From: Neoroseomonas soli
GTDB lineage: Bacteria; Pseudomonadota; Alphaproteobacteria; Acetobacterales; Acetobacteraceae
DNA: 64,000 nucleotides
Direction: 5' to 3'
Assembly (NCBI RefSeq): GCF_018129065.1
Contig: NZ_JAAEDM010000006.1
Coordinates: 1 to 64,000, forward strand
Of this stretch, positions 189 to 8,513 are shown piece after piece (within the stretch, counting starts at the first letter, position 1; each line of letters starts with the position of its first letter). Below the pieces are notes generated by a model that worked only from the letters and a program-made list of their open reading frames with translations, was not told the origin of the DNA and ran no database searches. A program made the translations under genes and the position numbers.

Positions 189-1457
189 ATGCCGGCGCTC
201 TGCCGCGACTGCCAGCACCGTGCCGAGACCGCCTTCACCCGCTGCCCCGCCTGCGGATCGCGGCGCACGATCGCGCACCCCGACCTGTTCCGCCTGACCG
301 TCGCGCATGTCGATTGCGACGCCTTCTACGCCAGCGTCGAGAAGCGCGACCGGCCGGAACTGCTGACCAGGCCCGTCATCGTCGGCGGCGGGAAGCGCGG
401 CGTCGTCGCCGCCTGCTGCTACATCGCGCGCACCCGTGGCGTGCGCAGCGCCATGCCGATGTTCAAGGCGCTGGCCGCCTGCCCGGACGCCGTGGTCATC
501 AAGCCGGACATCGCGAAATACGTCCGCGAGGGCCGCCGCATCCGCACCATGATGGAAGCGCTCACGCCGCTTGTGCAGCCCATGTCGATCGACGAGGCGG
601 TGCTCGACCTCGCGGGTACCGAGGCGCTGCACGGCGCCCCGCCCGCCGTGGTGCTGGCGCGCTTCGCCCTCGCGGTGGAACGGGAGGTCGGCGTCACCGT
701 CTCGGTCGGGCTTGCCGCCAACCGGCTGATGGCGAAGCTCGCGGCGGAGCGCGACAAGCCGCGCGGCTTCGCGGTGATCGGCGCGGACGAGGCCGCCGCC
801 TGGCTCGCGCCGCAGCCGGTTTCCGTGCTGCCCGGGGTCGGGCCGGCGCTGGCGAAGCGCCTGCAGGCGGCGGGGTTCTCGACCCTCGGGCAACTCGCTT
901 CGCTGGCGCCGCGGGAGGCGGCCCAGCGCTTCGGGGAGGACGGCCCATCGCTGGCCGCCCGCGCGCGCGGTGAGGATGCCCGCCGCGTCACCCCCGACCG
1001 CGAGACCAAGTCCATCAGCGCCGAGACCACCTTCGAGACGGACATCGCGGCGCGCGAGGCGCTGGAGGCGCCGCTCTGGCGCCTGTGCGAAAAGCTCGCC
1101 CGCCGGCTGAAGGAGAAGGACCTCGCCGCGGCCGGCGTGACGCTCAAGCTCAAGACCGCGGGTTTCGCCACGCGCACCCGCGCGGCCCGCCTGCCCCAGC
1201 CCACGCGCCTGCCGGAGGTGCTGTTTGCCGCCGCGAGGCCGATGCTGGCCAAGGAAGCGGACGGGACGGCCTTCCGGCTGATCGGGATCGGGGCGCAACC
1301 GCTGGCCCCGGCCGATCAGGCCGACCTCGGCGACCTGGCGGACCCCGAGGCGCCGAAGCGAGCCGCGCGCTGGGCGGCGGTGGAGGCGCTTCGCGCCAGG
1401 TTCGGGGACGACGCCATCGTGAAGGGCCGAGGCCTGAGGAAGCGCCCCGGGGAGTGA
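189..1457 (+). CDS. dinB: DNA polymerase IV (Y-family, DinB) with N-terminal zinc-finger motif
   Basis: Error-prone translesion polymerase of 422 residues. The catalytic acidic residues are visible in AHVDCDAFYASVE (Asp42) and in SIDEA (Asp135, Glu136). A helix-hairpin-helix region (LPGVGPALAKRL) and a little-finger domain follow. The first 25 residues carry two Cys-x-x-C pairs (C5/C8 and C19/C22), a short zinc-ribbon-like extension found on many alphaproteobacterial DinB proteins and absent from E. coli DinB. No LexA-type operator was recognised in the 4-base gap to the preceding gene. The assignment is secure. Confidence 0.95.
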   Translation: MPALCRDCQHRAETAFTRCPACGSRRTIAHPDLFRLTVAHVDCDAFYASVEKRDRPELLTRPVIVGGGKRGVVAACCYIARTRGVRSAMPMFKALAACPDAVVIKPDIAKYVREGRRIRTMMEALTPLVQPMSIDEAVLDLAGTEALHGAPPAVVLARFALAVEREVGVTVSVGLAANRLMAKLAAERDKPRGFAVIGADEAAAWLAPQPVSVLPGVGPALAKRLQAAGFSTLGQLASLAPREAAQRFGEDGPSLAARARGEDARRVTPDRETKSISAETTFETDIAAREALEAPLWRLCEKLARRLKEKDLAAAGVTLKLKTAGFATRTRAARLPQPTRLPEVLFAAARPMLAKEADGTAFRLIGIGAQPLAPADQADLGDLADPEAPKRAARWAAVEALRARFGDDAIVKGRGLRKRPGE

Positions 1458-1540: not shown

Positions 1541-2719
1541 TCAAGCCCGTTCCAGCAGCCCGGCCCTGGCCAGCCTGCGGCAGAACTTCAGCGCCCCCTC
1601 GCCGAGTTCCTCCGCCGTGGCGCCATCCTCCAGCGCCTGCAGCCAATCGAGTTCCTGCGCGCTCAGCGTCTCCACCCCGCCATACCAGCGCAGGGCCGCG
1701 CCGCCTTCGGGAAGCGGGACCAGCGTGTGGTGCATGGTTTCCGACAGGCGCAGCCTGTCCATCGCCGCCGGCGGCCTCGTCGTCAGCGAGCGCCCGGGCA
1801 GGGAGAGCCGATCCTGCGTCACGCGGTCGAGCGCCGCGACCGCCAGCCGTTCCGCCAGGCCCGGCTTCGCCAGCGCGTCGAGCGCCGCGCGCAGCCTTGC
1901 CTCCACCGCCGCGACGCCGTCGGGTTCCGCCAGGCGCCAGGTCGGCATGGCGGCGCGCAGGGCGGGTTCCTCGGGTTCCAGGTCGGCGAGCAGTTGGCGC
2001 AGCATCTCGCCCAGTCCGGGTTCGAGCAGCCCGATGGTGATGTGCAGGGACGGATCGGCGCCTTCCTGTACCATCGCCTCGTGCATCACGCCGCGCGGCA
2101 GGTAGAGCGCGTCTCCAGGCGCCATGACCAATTCGTGCGCTTCGCCCTCGGTCGCGGCGTTGTTGGACCACGGCGTGTGGCGCGTCGGCGCGGCGTAGGG
2201 GATCGCGTCCCACACCCGCCACGCCTTGCGGCCGGAGACCTGCAGCACCAGCACGTCATGGGTGTCGAAATGCACGCGGAAGCCCTGCGCCCCCGGCGGC
2301 GTCATGTAGATGTTGGCCTGAACGCCGTGCAGGAAGGCCTTTTCCAGCCCGCGGCAGAAGCGCGCGAGCGGCGGATGGATCTCGTGGAACTGGGAGACGA
2401 CGAGGCTCGCCCCGTCGTCGTGGCGCGCGAGCAGCCGCGGCAGGTCCACGCGGTCGCTGCCATCCTCGAGGTATTCCTCGTGCGGCACCGCGGCGCTGCC
2501 CGTGCGCGCGCCGTCGGCCATCGAGACGCGCGGCGTGCGCGCCGCGTCGGTGCGCAGGAACGCGTCGAGGTCAGCAATGGAAAGCAGCCCGGCGTAGCGA
2601 TCGGGGTCGTTGCCCGGAAACATCCTCCAGGCCGTGCCTTCCCGGAGCGCGATGCCGTCCTCGAGGGACAGGGAACCGAAGGCGAGGGTCCAGGATCCCT
2701 CGGCAAGTGTCGTCGTCAT
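1541..2719 (-). CDS. JmjC/cupin-4 family Fe(II)/2-oxoglutarate oxygenase (RoxA/YcfD-like)
   Basis: A 392-residue protein resembling the bacterial ribosomal-oxygenase/JmjC family (cupin_4), whose characterised members hydroxylate arginine or histidine side chains of ribosomal proteins. The metal triad is intact: HFDTHD supplies His150 and Asp152, and LPRGVMHEA supplies His213. The C-terminal 80 residues look like the helical, winged-helix-like tail of that family. Its ATG overlaps the stop of the upstream repeat-protein gene (ATGA at 2716-2719) and is preceded by GGAAGGA, so it is the last gene of a coupled four-gene set. Family membership is seen in the sequence; that the repeat proteins are its substrates is inference from the coupling. 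Confidence 0.85.
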   Translation of the reverse strand: MTTTLAEGSWTLAFGSLSLEDGIALREGTAWRMFPGNDPDRYAGLLSIADLDAFLRTDAARTPRVSMADGARTGSAAVPHEEYLEDGSDRVDLPRLLARHDDGASLVVSQFHEIHPPLARFCRGLEKAFLHGVQANIYMTPPGAQGFRVHFDTHDVLVLQVSGRKAWRVWDAIPYAAPTRHTPWSNNAATEGEAHELVMAPGDALYLPRGVMHEAMVQEGADPSLHITIGLLEPGLGEMLRQLLADLEPEEPALRAAMPTWRLAEPDGVAAVEARLRAALDALAKPGLAERLAVAALDRVTQDRLSLPGRSLTTRPPAAMDRLRLSETMHHTLVPLPEGGAALRWYGGVETLSAQELDWLQALEDGATAEELGEGALKFCRRLARAGLLERA

Positions 2720-3150
2720 CTGATCCTTCCGCGGCCCGCGGCGTCGCGCGGGTCGCTGTCCGAATAGCCTGTATGGGGCCGACCGCGCCCGGCGCCGTCA
2801 CGCGGGTCGCTGTCGGAATAGCCGGTGCGGGGCCGCCCCCGTCCGGCCGAGTCGCGCGGATCGCTGTCCGATTGGCCCGTATAGGGCCTTCCGCGCCCGG
2901 CGGCATCCCGCGGGTCGCTGTCCGAGTAGCCGGTGCGGGGGCGGCCGCGGCCCGCGGCGTCGCGCGGATCGCTGTCGGAATATCCCGTCCGGGGGCGCCC
3001 ACGCCCGGCGGCATCCCTCGGGTCGCTGTCGGAATAGCCGGTCCGGGGCTGCGCCGTGGCTGCGGCTGGCGCGGCGGCGGCGGCAGGGACGGCGAAGACC
3101 AGCAGCCGCCGCCCGAGGCGGCTGCGGCGTGTGGTCTCGTCGTCGCTCAT
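2716..3150 (-). CDS. Tandem-repeat secreted protein, 18-residue D-x-D-P-x-D repeats (repeat protein C)
   Basis: A 144-residue protein of unrecognised function. Residues 1-20 are polar with a basic RLGRRLLVF stretch, followed by an alanine-rich hydrophobic segment ending in ATAQ, a likely signal peptide with a cleavage site near residue 34. The rest is six near-identical 18-residue repeats (RTGYSDSDPRDAAGRGRP). No other domain is present. The start lies 25 bases after the stop of the upstream paralogue with no strong ribosome-binding site, suggesting coupled translation, and the stop overlaps the JmjC gene. Paralogues are at 3176-3745 and 3856-4329. The regular repeats and preserved frame argue that it is real. 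Confidence 0.75.
   Translation of the reverse strand: MSDDETTRRSRLGRRLLVFAVPAAAAAPAAATAQPRTGYSDSDPRDAAGRGRPRTGYSDSDPRDAAGRGRPRTGYSDSDPRDAAGRGRPYTGQSDSDPRDSAGRGRPRTGYSDSDPRDGAGRGRPHTGYSDSDPRDAAGRGRIR
2719..3045 (-). repeat. Six in-frame 54-bp tandem repeats in repeat protein C
   Basis: Each unit encodes R/H/Y-T-G-Y/Q-S-D-S-D-P-R-D-x-A-G-R-G-R-P. Variation is limited to a few positions (first residue R, Y or H; Y to Q once; A/S/G after the last Asp). The three units nearest the N-terminus are identical in protein, which points to recent duplication or homogenisation. Confidence 0.9.
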
Positions 3151-3175
3151 GGCGGCGCCGGTGTGCCGCTGCGCG

Positions 3176-3745
3176 TCAGCGCCAGCCGCGGCCGCGGCCG
3201 GGCGCGTCGCCGGGGTCGTTGTCGGTCACGCCGCGCTGGCGCTGCCGCCAGCCGCTGCCGTAGCCGGACGGATCGCCGGGATCGCCGTCATTGATGCCGG
3301 TATAGGCGCGGCGCTGCGGTGCGCGGTTGCCGCGGCCATTGCCGGCGCCGTCGTTCGGGTCGGCATCGGTGATGCCAGTGCCGCGGCGATAGCCGCGGCC
3401 ATTGCCGGCGCCGTCGTTCGGGTCGGAATCGGTGATGCCGGTGCCGCGACGGTAGCCGCGGCCATTGCCGGCGCCGTCGTTCGGGTCGGAATCGGTGATG
3501 CCGGTGCCGCGACGGTAGCCGCCACGGCCATAGCCGGCGCCGTCGTTCGGGTCGGAATCGGTAAGGCCGGTGCGATACTGGACGGGCGTCGGCTCGATCG
3601 CCTTGGCAGCCGGTGCGATGGCCGCGGTCGCCGCAGCGCCACCGGCCGCGGCGAGGCGCAGGACCAGCAGGCGTCGCCCCAGGCCCCGTCCCTCATCCCG
3701 TTCCGTATCGCCAGGCGCTGCCTTCGCGACGTCCTTCTCCGTCAT
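3176..3745 (-). CDS. Tandem-repeat secreted protein with TGITDSDPNDGAG repeats (repeat protein B)
   Basis: A 189-residue protein taken from the ATG at 3745; an upstream in-frame ATG at 3775 would add ten residues unlike the paralogues. The N-terminus has an acidic start, then GLGRRLLVLR and an alanine-rich hydrophobic stretch, matching the head of the two neighbouring paralogues. From about residue 58 there are six repeats of the form TG-I/L-T-D-S/A-D-P-N-D-G-A-G-x-G-R-G, the last two more divergent (NDGDPGDPSG and TDNDPGDAPG). It ends in GRGRGWR, close to the end of repeat protein A. Function unknown. Confidence 0.75.
   Translation of the reverse strand: MTEKDVAKAAPGDTERDEGRGLGRRLLVLRLAAAGGAAATAAIAPAAKAIEPTPVQYRTGLTDSDPNDGAGYGRGGYRRGTGITDSDPNDGAGNGRGYRRGTGITDSDPNDGAGNGRGYRRGTGITDADPNDGAGNGRGNRAPQRRAYTGINDGDPGDPSGYGSGWRQRQRGVTDNDPGDAPGRGRGWR
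3179..3574 (-). repeat. Six tandem repeats in repeat protein B
   Basis: Units of about 60-63 bp encode RRGTGITDSDPNDGAGNGRG with small variations. Two central units are identical in protein. The last two units are degenerate, but all keep the D-x-D-P-x-D spacing and most keep the following Gly/Arg-rich segment. Confidence 0.9.
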
Positions 3746-3855
3746 GGCCTCGTGCACTCCATTTCCCCACGGCAATCATCGGCTCTCCGCGGCGGTTTCC
3801 GCAAGAGTCGTGAGGGAATGCTAAGTGCGCCGGCGCACAATGGCGCCGAAGCGTT

Positions 3856-4329
3856 TCACCAGCCGCGGCCGCGCCCCGGCGCATCGCGCGGGTCGCTATC
3901 CGATATCTGCCGGCGATAGCCTCCGCGGCCATAGCCCGCGCCGTCGCCGGGATCGGCGTCGGTGTAGCCGGTGCGTGCGCGGCCGCGGTAGCCGCCGCGG
4001 CCATAGCCCGCGCCGTCGCCGGGGTCGGAATCGTTCACGCCGGTGTAGACGCGGTTGCCGCGATAGCCGCCACGGCCCTGTCCGGCCCCGTCGTTCGGGT
4101 CGGCATCCGTGAGGCCGGTGCCGCGGCGATAGCCGCCGCGCCCAAAGCCCGGGCCGTCATTCGGGTCGGCGTCGGTGTAGCCGGTGCGTGCCGGCCCCGG
4201 GGCATAGACCGCCCCCCCCGGCGGCGGCATCACGCAGCCGGCCAGGGCCGAGCCCGCGACCCCAACGCCGGCGATGCGCAGCACCAGCATGCGGCGCCCA
4301 AGTCGCGGTCTGTCCTTGTCGTCTTCCAT
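3856..4329 (-). CDS. Tandem-repeat lipoprotein-like protein (repeat protein A)
   Basis: A 157-residue protein; ATG 4329 is chosen because GAGGAAGG lies 8 bases upstream (an in-frame ATG at 4347 lacks this). The head is PRLGRRMLVLR, then a hydrophobic segment ending in the lipobox SALAGC (Cys32), so this member is probably a lipoprotein whereas B and C look soluble after cleavage. Five repeats follow, TG-Y/L/V-T/N-D-A/S-D-P-N/G-D-G-x-G-x-GRGGYR, and the protein closes with SDSDPRDAPGRGRGW. It is the first gene of the minus-strand set A, B, C, JmjC oxygenase and is divergent from tctC. Confidence 0.75.
   Translation of the reverse strand: MEDDKDRPRLGRRMLVLRIAGVGVAGSALAGCVMPPPGGAVYAPGPARTGYTDADPNDGPGFGRGGYRRGTGLTDADPNDGAGQGRGGYRGNRVYTGVNDSDPGDGAGYGRGGYRGRARTGYTDADPGDGAGYGRGGYRRQISDSDPRDAPGRGRGW
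3859..4188 (-). repeat. Five tandem repeats in repeat protein A
   Basis: Units of roughly 60-75 bp encode the same core as in the two downstream genes, with linkers of varying length (for example RGNRVY and RGRAR) between units. The unit is more diverged within this gene than within B or C. Confidence 0.85.
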
Positions 4330-4492
4330 CAGTGCGGCCTTCCTCACGATTCACGGCATCCTCGCGGGGCACGCCCGTCGGGGCAAGTGCCGGGCGTGCC
4401 GCGGCGGCAAACAGGCGGTTTTGCCCTTGGCGGCCGCCATGGCCCGAGCGCAGACTCCACCCCACCACGAGGACAACGCCGGACCACCGAAC

Positions 4493-5455
4493 ATGACACA
4501 ACGCCGCACCCTTCTCGCCGCGACCGCTGCGCTCGGCCTCACGCCCGGACTGGCGCGCGCGCAGCAGCGCTTCGCCAGCATGTACATGTTCATCCCCGCC
4601 GGTCCCGGCGGCGGATGGGACGGCCTCGGCCGCGCGGTCGAGCAGGTGGCGCGCGGCGCCGGCCTGGTCGGCAGCTTCCAGTTCGAGAACGTGGGCGGCG
4701 CCGGCGGCACCGTGGGCCTGCCGCGCTTCGTCGCCCAGCGCCGCGGCCGCGGCGACGCGCTGATGGTCGGCGGCGCGGTGATGGTCGGCGCGGTGCTGAC
4801 CAACCGCACGCCCGTGGGCATCAAGGACGTGACGCCGATCGCGCGCATGACGACCGAACCCGGCGTCATCGTCGTGCCGGCGAATTCCGAGTTCCAGAAC
4901 CTGCGCGGCTTCCTCGATGCGCTGAAGGCCAATCCCGGCGCGGTCTCGGTCGGCGGCGGCAGCGCCGGCGGCATCGACCACATCACCCTCGGGCTGATGC
5001 TGAAGGCGCAGGGGCGCAACGCGCGCGAGGGATCCTATGTCGCCTTCGCCGGCGGCGGTCCGGCCCAGGCCGCGATCCTCGGCGCGCAGGTCAAGGCGGG
5101 CATCTCCGGCGTGTCGGAATTCTCCGAGCAGATCGCCGCGGGGCGGATGCGCGCGCTGGCGACCACCGGCGACACCCGCAGCCTGACAGGCGTGCCGACG
5201 CTGAAGGAAAGCGGCCTCGACATCGTCATCGGCAACTGGCGCGGGCTGTTCGGCGCGCCGGGCATCAACGCCGCGCAGCGCCAGGCGCTGGTGGACTTCA
5301 CCACCGCGCTGCACGCCCTGCCGGCGTGGCGGGACCTGATGAAGACGCGCGGCTGGGACGACGCCTTCCTGACCGGCACCGCCTTCGAGGAATTCCTCGC
5401 GCGCGACCAGCGCGAGACCGAGGCGGTACTCCGCGACATCGGCCTGGTGACGTGA
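4493..5455 (+). CDS. tctC: Tripartite tricarboxylate transporter substrate-binding protein (TctC/Bug family)
   Basis: Periplasmic solute receptor for the TctAB carrier encoded downstream. ATG 4493 gives 320 residues starting MTQRRTLLAATAALGL with a cleavage site near ARA-Q (residue 24). The open frame extends upstream to 4274, but that part does not look like protein. IPAGPGGGWD is the family's first ligand-binding loop, and NVGGAGGTVG is typical of Bug proteins. tctB follows one base after its stop. The substrate is unknown; characterised relatives bind citrate or other carboxylates. Confidence 0.9.
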   Translation: MTQRRTLLAATAALGLTPGLARAQQRFASMYMFIPAGPGGGWDGLGRAVEQVARGAGLVGSFQFENVGGAGGTVGLPRFVAQRRGRGDALMVGGAVMVGAVLTNRTPVGIKDVTPIARMTTEPGVIVVPANSEFQNLRGFLDALKANPGAVSVGGGSAGGIDHITLGLMLKAQGRNAREGSYVAFAGGGPAQAAILGAQVKAGISGVSEFSEQIAAGRMRALATTGDTRSLTGVPTLKESGLDIVIGNWRGLFGAPGINAAQRQALVDFTTALHALPAWRDLMKTRGWDDAFLTGTAFEEFLARDQRETEAVLRDIGLVT

Positions 5456-5456
5456 C

Positions 5457-5969
5457 GTGACGCGGCGCGGGGCGGACGCGGCCGACCTCGCCGCGGGCGT
5501 CTTCGTCCTGCTGCTCGGCGGCGTCGCGGTCTGGGCCGCGGGCGTCATCCCGACCACGCCGCTCTACGCGCAGGTCGGGCCGAAGGCGGTGCCCTATGTC
5601 GTGGGGGGCGGGCTCGCCGGGCTCGGCGTGCTGCTCGTCGCCGCCGCGCTGCGCGGAGGCTGGAGCGCGGACCTGCCCGAGGTGGCCGAAGCCGGGCCGC
5701 CCAATCCGCGCGCGCTCGGCTGGCTCGGCGGCGGGCTGGTCATGAACCTGCTGCTGATCGGGCCGCTGGGCTTTTCCCTCTCGGCGGCGGCGCAGTTCGT
5801 CTGCACTGCGCGGGCCTTCGGCAGCACGACGCCGGGGCGGGACGCGGCGATCGCGCTGGCGGTCTCGCTCGCCGCCTTCTTCCTGTTCGTGGAGGCGCTT
5901 GGCGTGAACATCGGTGCGGGTGTCCTGGAAGCTGCCATCCTGCGCGCCATCGGGCGCGAGGTGATCTGA
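5457..5969 (+). CDS. tctB: Tripartite tricarboxylate transporter small membrane subunit TctB
   Basis: A 170-residue integral membrane protein starting with GTG one base after the tctC stop. Four hydrophobic segments are visible, near residues 10-32, 45-65, 85-108 and 125-155, as expected for the four-helix TctB subunit. It forms the membrane complex with TctA. The next gene starts inside its stop codon (TGATG), so the unit is translationally coupled. Confidence 0.85.
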   Translation: MTRRGADAADLAAGVFVLLLGGVAVWAAGVIPTTPLYAQVGPKAVPYVVGGGLAGLGVLLVAAALRGGWSADLPEVAEAGPPNPRALGWLGGGLVMNLLLIGPLGFSLSAAAQFVCTARAFGSTTPGRDAAIALAVSLAAFFLFVEALGVNIGAGVLEAAILRAIGREVI

Positions 5970-6862
5970 TGCGGGCCTTCCGGTTCGTGACGGTGGACGT
6001 GTTCACCGAGCAGCGCTTCGGCGGCAATCAACTCGCCGTCTTTCCCGATGCGCGCGGGCTGAGCGACGCCGAGATGCAGGCGCTCGCCGCCGAGTTCAAC
6101 CTCAGCGAGACCACCTTCGTCCTGCCGCCGTCCGACCCGCACAACACCGCGCGCGTGCGCATCTTCAACCGCGTTGCCGAGATGCCCTTCGCCGGCCACC
6201 CCAACGTCGGCGCCGCCTACGTGCTGGGGCGGGAGGACGAGGAGGCGCACCGCGCCTACCGTTTCGAGGAGCCCGCGGGGCTCGTTGAGGTGGCCCTCGA
6301 ACGCGACGCGGAGGGGCGGGTCATCGGTGCGGAGGTGGCGGCGCCGCAGCCGCTCAGGGTCGGCGCCGAGCTGCCGGCCCGTATCGCCGCCGCCTGCGCC
6401 GGCATTCCCGAGGCGGAGGTGCTCACCCTGCGCCACGCGCCGACGCTTGCCTCGGATGGTGGCAACCATCGACTGCTGACGGAGGTGACGCCCGCCGGGC
6501 TCGCCGCCGCGGCGCCGGACCTCGGCGCATTCCGGCGGGCGGTCGCGGATTTCCCGTCGGAGACGCGCGGCTTCCTCTCGCTCTACATCTACTGCCGGGA
6601 CGGGGCGAAGGTCCGGGCGCGGATGTTCTCGCCGCTGACCGGCACCTGGGAGGACGCGGCGACCGGCAGCGCGGCGACACCGCTCGCGGGCTTCCTGCTG
6701 CGGCTCGGCGGCGGCTCGGAGGGCGCGTGGGAGATCATCCAGGGCGCGGAGATGGGGCGGCCGAGCCTGCTGCTGGCGCGGGCGAGGCGGCTCGCGGACG
6801 GTTATCGCGCGGCGGTGGGCGGGCGCTGCGTGCCCGTGCTGCGGGGCGAGGCGGTGCTGTGA
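5969..6862 (+). CDS. PhzF family isomerase/epimerase
   Basis: A 297-residue member of the PhzF/diaminopimelate-epimerase fold. The N-terminal signature FVTVDVFTEQRFGGNQLAVF, the catalytic glutamate in NLSETTFVLPP (Glu47) and the glycine-rich AGHPNVGAAYVLG are clear, as is the C-terminal TGSAATPLAGFLL motif. PhzF isomerises dihydrohydroxyanthranilate in phenazine synthesis, but most PhzF-like proteins have no known substrate and no phenazine genes are nearby. It lies inside the transporter operon between tctB and tctA, which suggests it acts on the imported compound. Confidence 0.88.
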   Translation: MRAFRFVTVDVFTEQRFGGNQLAVFPDARGLSDAEMQALAAEFNLSETTFVLPPSDPHNTARVRIFNRVAEMPFAGHPNVGAAYVLGREDEEAHRAYRFEEPAGLVEVALERDAEGRVIGAEVAAPQPLRVGAELPARIAAACAGIPEAEVLTLRHAPTLASDGGNHRLLTEVTPAGLAAAAPDLGAFRRAVADFPSETRGFLSLYIYCRDGAKVRARMFSPLTGTWEDAATGSAATPLAGFLLRLGGGSEGAWEIIQGAEMGRPSLLLARARRLADGYRAAVGGRCVPVLRGEAVL

Positions 6863-6874
6863 GGGCGACAAGGT

Positions 6875-6991
6875 CGGGGGGAGCGAACTCCCCCCGTATC
6901 CCCCCTCCTTCTTTCGATACTTTGCGGATCGCCGCAGGCGGTCCGCCCTGACAGAGAAGGGAGGGGGCTCGGGGGAGGTTCTCCTCCCCCG
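6875..6991. repeat. Pair of G-rich hairpins between phzF-like gene and tctA
   Basis: Two stem-loops stand in opposite orientation: CGGGGGGAG/CTCCCCCCG with loop CGAA at 6875-6896, and CGGGGGAGG/CCTCCCCCG with loop TTCT at 6970-6991. Between them, C-rich and G-rich arms (about 6897-6913 and 6955-6968) can also pair. The second hairpin is the same sequence as the one at 1515-1536. Because tctA lies downstream on the same strand, this may attenuate tctA rather than end the operon. Confidence 0.6.
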
Positions 6992-7019
6992 ACCTTATCT
7001 TCCTCGCGAAGGGTTTCGG

Positions 7020-8513
7020 ATGGACTCGATCTCGGGCCTGGCCCTCGGCTTCGGCAATGCCTTCTCCCTGGCGAACCTCGCCTGGGCCCTGCTCGGCTGC
7101 TTCCTCGGCACCGCGGTCGGCGTGCTCCCCGGCATCGGCCCGGCGCTGACCATCGCGCTGCTGCTGCCCATCACCTTCACGGTCAGCGCGACGGGTGCCT
7201 TCATCCTGTTCTGCGGCGTCTTCTACGGCGCGATGTATGGCGGCAGCACGACGTCGATCCTGTTGAACACGCCGGGCGAGAGCGGGTCGATCATCACCGC
7301 GCTCGAAGGGGCGAAGATGGCGCGCAACGGGCGCGCGGGGCCGGCGCTGGCGACATCCGCGATCGGGTCCTTCGTCGCCGGCACGGTGGGCACGCTCGGC
7401 ATCGCCTTCCTCGGGCCGGTGATCGTCGAATGGGCGCTGGTGCTGGGGCCGGCGGAATACTTCTCCCTGATGGTGCTGTGCTTCGTGACGGTGTCCGCGG
7501 TGCTGGGCTCCTCGGCGCTGCGGGGCATGACGTCGCTGTTCCTGGGGCTGCTGCTCGGGCTGGTGGGGATCGACCTGCAGACCGGCCAGCCGCGCCTGAC
7601 CTTCGGCGTGACGGAACTGCTGGACGGCGTGAACGTGGTGCTGGTCGCCGTCGCGCTGTTCGCTGTGGGGGAGGCGCTGCACATGGCCTGGCGCCACCAT
7701 GAGGGGAAGGTCGAGGTGCTCGAGGTCGGGCGCCTGATGCTGTCGAAGGAGGACCTGAAGCGGTCCTTCTGGCCCTGGATGCGCGGCGCGGGCCTCGGCT
7801 TCCCCTTCGGCGTCTTGCCGGCGGGCGGGACCGAGATGCCGACCATGCTGTCCTATTACGCTGAGCGGAAGCTGGTGAAGCCGGAACACCGGCACGAATT
7901 CGGCACGACCGGCGCGATCGAGGGCGTGGCCGGGCCGGAAGCCGCCAACAACGCGGCGGCGGCGGGCGTTCTCGTGCCGATGCTGACGCTAGGCCTGCCG
8001 ACCAGCGCGACGGCGGCGATCATGCTCTCGGCCTTCCAGTCCTATGGCATCAATCCCGGGCCGATGCTGTTCACGCAGCAGGCGGAGCTGGTGTGGACGC
8101 TGATTGCCTCGCTGTTCATCGCCAACGTCATGCTGGTGGTGCTGAACCTGCCGCTGGTCGGGCTCTGGGTGCGCATCCTCAAGGTCCCGGTGCCGCAGCT
8201 CTATGGCGGCATCCTGGTCTTCGCGACCATCGGCACCTACGGCATCTCGAACAGCGTGATGGACCTGGTGATCCTCTATGCGCTCGGCGTGGTGGCGATG
8301 TTCATGCGGCGCTTCGACTTCCCTGTGGCGCCGGTGGTGATCGGCATGATCCTGGGGCCGATGGCCGAACAGGCGCTGCGCCAGGCATTGACCATCAGCC
8401 AGGGCGACTGGACCACCTTCGTCACGCGGCCGGGCAGCGCGCTCATCCTGGCGCTGGCGGTGCTGGCGCTGGCGGGGCCGCGGATCTGGGCGGCGGTGGC
8501 GTCGCGGCGCTGA
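7020..8513 (+). CDS. tctA: Tripartite tricarboxylate transporter large permease TctA
   Basis: A 497-residue polytopic permease of the normal length for TctA. The family motif [20 protein letters not shown] is near residue 38, and a related motif ([20 protein letters not shown]) recurs near residue 303, reflecting the internal duplication. About ten to twelve hydrophobic segments are visible. It is the transport channel working with TctB and TctC, separated from tctB by the PhzF-like gene and a hairpin-rich spacer. Confidence 0.92.

Follow-up and report, generated by a model that had tools for sequence, protein, structure and literature searches.

A conserved pairing of a JmjC_2 oxygenase with putatively exported repeat proteins in Alphaproteobacteria suggests a RiPP-like protein-modification module

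Contig NZ_JAAEDM010000006.1 of the alphaproteobacterium Neoroseomonas soli, of which positions 1 to 64,000 form the window analysed here (all coordinates of the locus are in window numbering), encodes on its minus strand three repeat proteins with export-type signals, followed by a JmjC_2-type Fe(II)/2-oxoglutarate (2OG) oxygenase, P0001. This arrangement raises the question of whether the repeat proteins are the substrates of the enzyme encoded with them, or whether a ribosomal-protein hydroxylase merely happens to lie next to genes for export proteins. The original prediction for this locus, three repeat genes and a complete oxygenase gene with an ATGA overlap between the last repeat gene and the oxygenase, is borne out by the minus-strand open reading frames (ORFs) of the window, in the order repeat gene 1, 2, 3 and then oxygenase. 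One start site has to be revised, since repeat gene 1 most likely begins at ATG 4329, preceded by GAGGAAGG, instead of at the GTG at 4347 given originally.

The coupling between the oxygenase and the repeats is real and conserved. In a family sample of 200 genomes, 44 contain a match to P0001 at 1e-10; these comprise 27 with a clade defined by a best match of at least 41% identity to P0001, spread over 14 of the 102 genera, and 17 with only another JmjC_2 type, at 39% identity or lower. A hidden Markov model (HMM) of the repeats (A3) matches 29 of the 200 genomes, namely all 27 clade genomes and two of the 173 others (G106 and G177), and among the genomes with the other type only, one of 17 has repeats. 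In the class sample (385 genomes; clade cut-off E below 1e-60) the clade is present in G000 and 11 others, and the repeat HMM matches G000, nine of those 11 and none of the remaining 373; in G202 and G346 the matches sit on other contigs than the oxygenase. The phylum sample (398 genomes) adds four further clade genomes (G867, G863, G738 and G763), two of which are detected by repeat HMM A5, and all six genomes with a repeat HMM match in this sample have the clade. Every clade member found belongs to the Alphaproteobacteria, and modules with both parts occur in seven families by tool labels (f1, f4, f13, f16, f23, f63 and f128). The check proposed with the original prediction, co-occurrence of the repeat family with this oxygenase clade, gave a positive answer in all three samples.

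The association is also seen at individual loci. Of 51 distinct clade loci, 48 have a repeat gene no more than 1.1 kb from the oxygenase; the 51 are made up of 36 loci from the family sample and named genomes plus 11 and 4 further ones, with 34, 10 and 4 positives respectively, and leave out the second clade copy of G523. Repeat genes thus do stand next to orthologues of P0001, and their absence there had been named originally as grounds for abandoning the idea. In the family sample they are upstream and on the same strand at 26 of 27 clade loci, and at 23 of these 26 the last repeat stop is at most 68 nt from the oxygenase or overlaps it; at L018 another ORF intervenes and the gap is 1060 nt. 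The named genomes have repeat genes at 10 of 11 loci (two of the 11 duplicate family-sample loci), and 10 of 11 further clade loci in the class sample have an adjoining repeat gene. In the four additional phylum-sample genomes the proteins beside the oxygenase are short, with one or two units, and divergently transcribed, and several loci elsewhere have two or three repeat genes side by side. By comparison, a scan with a looser repeat pattern of about 1.5 kb around other JmjC_2 genes, or to the contig end, found not even one unit at any of 30 distinct loci, including the second JmjC_2 copies of N. soli (C148) and of G474. A ribosomal-protein hydroxylase placed by chance beside export proteins would account for the Pfam family and overall fold that P0001 shares with the ribosomal oxygenases (ROX) NO66, MINA53 and YcfD; given the adjacency at clade loci, the tight co-occurrence in three samples and the result for the 30 other loci, we consider this highly improbable and reject it. 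The conserved coupling to repeats itself argues against a ribosomal-protein hydroxylase function.

The repeat-linked enzymes likely form one clade, judging from trees of the oxygenase sequences. In a tree of 61 rows, made without E. coli RoxA and without near-duplicates, 19 no-repeat enzymes split from the rest at 100/99, and the repeat label changes 4 times vs. 18.8 times in shuffles; the enzymes of L032 and L067, which have no adjoining repeat gene, fall in the repeat-linked part. In a second tree, of 63 rows and with E. coli RoxA, 17 no-repeat enzymes cluster together at 90/98; RoxA is on a very long branch there, so that the repeat-linked group cannot be rooted with confidence. Loci missed by the script motif, L115 among them, are absent from these trees. 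The window oxygenase and the second JmjC_2 paralogue of N. soli fall into different groups, and the window enzyme is separated from most JmjC_2 oxygenases without repeats; a grouping with ribosomal hydroxylases that lack repeat proteins would have spoken against the original proposal.

P0001 matches Pfam JmjC_2 with an E-value of 1.2e-26 (93.1 bits vs. a cut-off of 22) and has the remaining hallmarks of the JmjC_2/ROX family, an HxD...H triad with a basic 2OG residue and a C-terminal winged helix. Its H150, D152, H213 and K165 are invariant among 17 clade sequences (alignment A4) and correspond to H133, D135, H196 and R148 of YcfD_RM, the Fe triad and 2OG-binding residue described in the relevant passages of PMC5862935. 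The solved structures closest by sequence are NO66 and MINA53 (best E 5e-20), followed by YcfD (best E 2.7e-7), and the fold comparison gives the same ranking, for which only the order is used since the full-length model has a mean predicted local distance difference test (pLDDT) score of 71 and correspondingly poor root-mean-square deviations. The original description of the enzyme as RoxA/YcfD-like is loose, NO66 and MINA53 being nearer by both sequence and fold. A plasmid collection yielded 44 records, all distant relatives, none covering 80% of the query and 39 of them from Streptomyces. As side observations on the oxygenase loci, G095:C7 and G152:C1 have a paralogue of the other JmjC_2 type no more than about 3 kb from the repeat-linked oxygenase, with a repeat gene close, and at L040 (G088) the oxygenase match, with an adjoining repeat gene, is split across two overlapping frames, possibly through a frameshift or an assembly error.

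What could such an enzyme act on in the repeat proteins? The D-x-D-P-x-D-x-x-G unit noted originally is present, in 5, 6 and 6 copies in the window proteins of 157, 189 and 144 residues, but it runs on to D-x-D-P-x-D-x-x-G-x-G-R. Shuffling each protein 2000 times gave a mean of at most 0.0045 units and never more than one per shuffle. Across 16 window units the invariant residues are encoded by mixed synonymous codons, which argues that the amino acids themselves have been kept and that there was no recent tandem copying at the DNA level. Across the precursors, a single protein can have as many as 14 units of the form [T/S]-D-x-D-(loop)-D-x-x-G-x-G-R. In a wider set of 75 distinct precursors (deduplicated on their last 60 residues, and including some contig-cut or near-duplicate proteins), an Arg follows G-x-G in 391 of 412 units; because the search pattern presupposes Asp and Gly, the Arg count alone is informative. 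A variant unit, T-D-S-D-[ST]-G-x-x-x-D-x-x-G-x-G-R-G, is frequent in class-sample loci, and the short distant repeat proteins have Cys and Trp within or next to their units. The window's three repeat proteins match no Pfam family at E up to 1, so that calcium-binding families, which were considered, find no match either; NCBIfam gave one weak Tat-target match, below cut-off, in one protein, and neither database returned a Nif11 leader, so that they do not qualify as Nif11-leader precursors.

The residues known to be modified by ROX enzymes are Arg or His of ribosomal proteins, and the uL16 peptide is given as ...AEVRMGKGKG in the passage concerned of PMC5862935. Histidine hydroxylation as the main reaction, by analogy with NO66 and MINA53, is rejected, as the repeat parts of the 75 precursors contain 38 His (and 12 Lys) in 8773 residues. 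We somewhat favour the near-invariant Arg of G-x-G-R as the target, by analogy, because YcfD hydroxylates the Arg of ...VRMGKGKG in uL16, a Gly-rich context similar to that of the repeats; one of the invariant Asp residues is a more tentative candidate. An Asp target could also mean that the units bind Ca2+ or another metal and that beta-hydroxylation of an invariant Asp tunes this binding, a variant of the same explanation that we regard as rather unlikely. Each unit counted with the search pattern contains a D-x-D-...-D loop, and such loops resemble acidic metal-binding loops; on the other hand, the repeat spacing differs from that of EF-hand and TSP3 loops, the window's repeat proteins belong to no Pfam family and the Arg is nearly invariant too. 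There is a precedent for the chemistry in FIH, a JmjC-fold enzyme that hydroxylates L-Asp according to a passage of PMC9814778. The type of reaction is not readable from sequence, and with the same module and substrates the oxidation might be other than a hydroxylation, for example crosslinking or desaturation, leaving no plain +16 Da end product. The Cys and Trp residues of the short distant repeat proteins would fit this, as would the alpha-ketoglutarate-dependent RiPP macrocyclisation named in a reference title in PMC12710340; we nevertheless consider it unlikely, since the entry titles of NO66, MINA53 and YcfD name hydroxylases (and, for some NO66 entries, demethylases).

The precursors have export-type signals. 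A twin-arginine (RR) motif is found by regular expression in 70 of the 75, the five misses including three contig-cut proteins and the window's own RRM, and signal-peptidase-like sites (AxA or lipobox) were recognised by eye and by regular expression. A lipobox-like motif is present in 20 of 75, and repeat protein 1 of the window has the lipobox LAGC. The motif L-[TSRK]-[DE]-x-[DEQ]-I precedes the RR in 13 of 75 (one of them a near-duplicate), and the twin-arginine translocation (Tat) model TIGR01409 scores above cut-off in two of 12 precursors scanned with NCBIfam (L112 and L058). These signals bear on a further reading, in which the repeat proteins would be partners or regulators that, for instance, steer the oxygenase to a ribosomal or other protein. 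Coupling by itself fits a partner as well as a substrate, and some repeat genes are far from the oxygenase; yet export-type signals would take the precursors out of the cytoplasm, and their many units, together with the groups of two or three repeat genes seen at several loci, are more substrate-like than expected of a stoichiometric regulator, making this reading quite unlikely.

The C-terminal domain of the oxygenase offers a possible way of recognising such precursors. When modelled in isolation (AlphaFold2, pLDDT 91), it consists of beta strands followed by three helices and resembles the winged helix of MINA53 (VIA Z 9.6), the lasso-peptide RiPP recognition element (RRE) with leader 6jx3_B (Z 8.7; 68 residues, 1.9 A), PqqD (5sxy; Z 8.3) and the TbiB1 RRE (Z 8.2), RiPPs being ribosomally synthesised and post-translationally modified peptides; the corresponding domain of YcfD_RM reaches a Z of only 3.9. 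In the reading that we favour, the RRE-fold domain would probably dock the leader of the repeat precursor.

Taken together, we think it likely that the locus encodes a two-component, RiPP-like protein-modification module in which the oxygenase oxidises each repeat in the cytoplasm before Tat export. The repeat proteins would be RiPP-like precursors whose N-terminal leader doubles as a Tat-type export signal, and the oxygenase a dedicated modifying enzyme that binds this leader through its RRE-fold domain and oxidises one residue per repeat at its JmjC_2 site. The modified protein would then be exported by Tat to the periplasm, lipidated forms being anchored in the envelope, and might serve there, as a guess, in metal or polymer binding. 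Modification before Tat export is the simplest order of events for an Fe(II)/2OG-dependent cytoplasmic oxygenase combined with twin-arginine-type signals and an RRE-fold domain. The arrangement typical of RiPPs, a ribosomally made precursor beside its presumed modifying enzyme, is present at 48 of the 51 clade loci.

Several observations weigh against this proposal. Three clade loci lack a proper repeat gene beside the oxygenase: L032 (G005, which has one elsewhere in the genome), L067, and L055, where a one-unit remnant lies 12 bases before the oxygenase match on a short contig with damaged frames. Conversely, G106 (97% complete) has repeats, but neither the genome search nor an inspection of the regions retrieved from it, the final 318 bases behind one repeat gene among them, turned up a clade oxygenase; G177 likewise has repeats without a clade oxygenase, in this case with repeat genes running off the contig end, beyond which an oxygenase gene could have been lost from view. 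Orphan repeat genes are also present elsewhere in the N. soli genome. As the genomes are related, Fisher p values for the co-occurrence overstate independence, and in the 61-row tree the no-repeat enzymes L121 and L122 join the repeat-linked part, though weakly. With regard to export and docking, none of the window's three repeat proteins reaches the Tat model cut-off and all lack the L-x-D/E-x-x-I motif; the best Foldseek E-value for the isolated C-terminal domain is a weak 0.03, with no match at 0.001 or below, and Pfam has no RRE family that matches this domain. Finally, the RRE-like fold is shared with MINA53 and NO66, enzymes acting on ribosomal proteins, and is thus consistent with leader recognition without being specific to a RiPP function.

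Further repeat genes were noted in the window's own genome (G000), one in C100 (L011 4307-4936 +) and others at the contig ends C9 (L014) and C90 (L013), with no oxygenase seen alongside; the orphan repeat proteins of this genome may be modified in trans.

How does the module compare with known systems? Bufferins and other RiPPs whose precursors are modified by an iron oxygenase (MNIO/DUF692) and exported with a signal peptide as leader are comparable, but involve another enzyme family and export signal and have no D-x-D...G-x-G-R repeats. The ROX enzymes (JmjC_2/PF08007: NO66, MINA53 and YcfD/RoxA) share the catalytic domain, the Fe/2OG ligands and the overall order of domains, with a winged helix at the C-terminus; unlike them, the window enzyme belongs to a distinct group encoded with exported, almost His-free repeat proteins, and N. 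soli has its second JmjC_2 copy without repeats. Similarity extends to the biphenomycin enzymes BipG/BpmG and the cupin-like PbsQ, JmjC/cupin-like 2OG hydroxylases in RiPP clusters that target an Arg-derived residue of the peptide, as described in passages of PMC12707348 and PMC12257519. According to these passages, however, BipG/BpmG and PbsQ hydroxylate ornithine and belong to multi-enzyme antibiotic clusters with an arginase, an MNIO and a radical SAM enzyme, whereas the window module, compared by description only, combines a single enzyme with long repeat proteins destined for export. The Pfam family, an RRE-like fold and a RiPP-like context are shared with proteins of PMC12710340, which reports fusions of RRE-like domains with PF08007 from fish and algae, and closest bacterial homologues in RiPP-like contexts; the passages concerned name neither a substrate nor a repeat family, Tat signal or mechanism. 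An open-access literature search found no description of the oxygenase and repeat-protein module, and the coupling is apparently undescribed. The original statement that no such system is known nevertheless has to be qualified, in that PF08007 proteins with RRE-like domains, and bacterial homologues in RiPP-like contexts, already appear in PMC12710340, the passages concerned not describing this module. Whether the module represents an undescribed class, of Tat-exported and multi-site oxidised repeat proteins in Alphaproteobacteria with an NO66/MINA53-like oxygenase and a leader-binding RRE, seems to us evenly balanced.

At L115 (G886; 2641-2925, minus strand), another JmjC_2 oxygenase lies beside a Nif11-leader precursor (Pfam 4.8e-10, above cut-off); this oxygenase matches the window enzyme with an E-value of 5.8e-49, outside the clade cut. 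The locus is possibly a second JmjC_2 RiPP type, and its Nif11 neighbour may point to a broader connection of JmjC_2 enzymes with RiPPs.

Table 1. Features of the repeat-protein and oxygenase locus in the N. soli window.
Feature	Position	Strand	Basis
JmjC_2 (ROX-type) Fe(II)/2OG oxygenase P0001, 392 aa, proposed modifying enzyme	1541..2719	-	Pfam, structures, invariant ligands
H150-x-D152 iron-binding motif of oxygenase	2264..2272	-	invariant alignment columns A1, A2, A4
H213, third Fe ligand of oxygenase	2081-2083	-	invariant columns
K165, 2OG-binding residue of oxygenase	2225-2227	-	invariant columns
C-terminal winged-helix domain of oxygenase, RRE fold, residues 312-392	1544..1786	-	AlphaFold2 and structure comparison
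ATGA, overlap of repeat gene 3 stop and oxygenase start	2716..2719	-	sequence
Repeat protein 3, 144 aa, 6 units	2716..3150	-	translation, shuffle test
Repeat protein 3, N-terminal twin-arginine-type signal RLGRRLLVF ... ATA|Q	3052..3150	-	translation; family-wide motif; cleavage site by eye
Repeat protein 2, 189 aa, 6 units	3176..3745	-	translation, HMM A3 match
Repeat protein 2, leader and twin-arginine-type signal GLGRRLLVLR ... AKA|I	3599..3745	-	translation; family-wide motif; cleavage site by eye
Repeat protein 1, 157 aa, 5 units, predicted lipoprotein	3856..4329	-	translation; lipobox LAGC; GAGGAAGG before ATG 4329
Repeat protein 1, twin-arginine-type lipoprotein signal RLGRRMLVLR ... 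LAG|C	4237..4329	-	translation, by eye

Around the module (Table 1), scans for promoters and terminators found nothing. Divergently upstream (4274-8513) are transporter genes, which from their sequence likeness we take to be of the TctC/TctB/TctA type, and a presumably PhzF-like gene; on the other side, convergent with the module, a gene at 189-1457 (+) has an N-terminal CxxC...CxxC stretch and presumably encodes a DinB-like DNA polymerase. The TctC/PhzF-type neighbourhood recurs upstream at several of seven longer named loci, at which the downstream genes vary and, judged from sequence starts, nothing is constant besides the repeats and the oxygenase that could be a conserved third gene.

Hydroxylation of ribosomal proteins is what the JmjC_2 oxygenases are known for, and a clade tied to exported repeat proteins would add a new class of substrates, together with a small two-gene system that lends itself to testing and offers many sites on each substrate. 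Such a clade would also give the RRE-like domain of the JmjC_2 family a functional reason and indicate a new bacterial route for decorating envelope proteins. Should the reading as an undescribed class hold, the ribosomal-oxygenase family would gain a dedicated non-ribosomal substrate, and an origin of the eukaryotic ribosomal oxygenases from peptide-modifying RiPP enzymes would be suggested.

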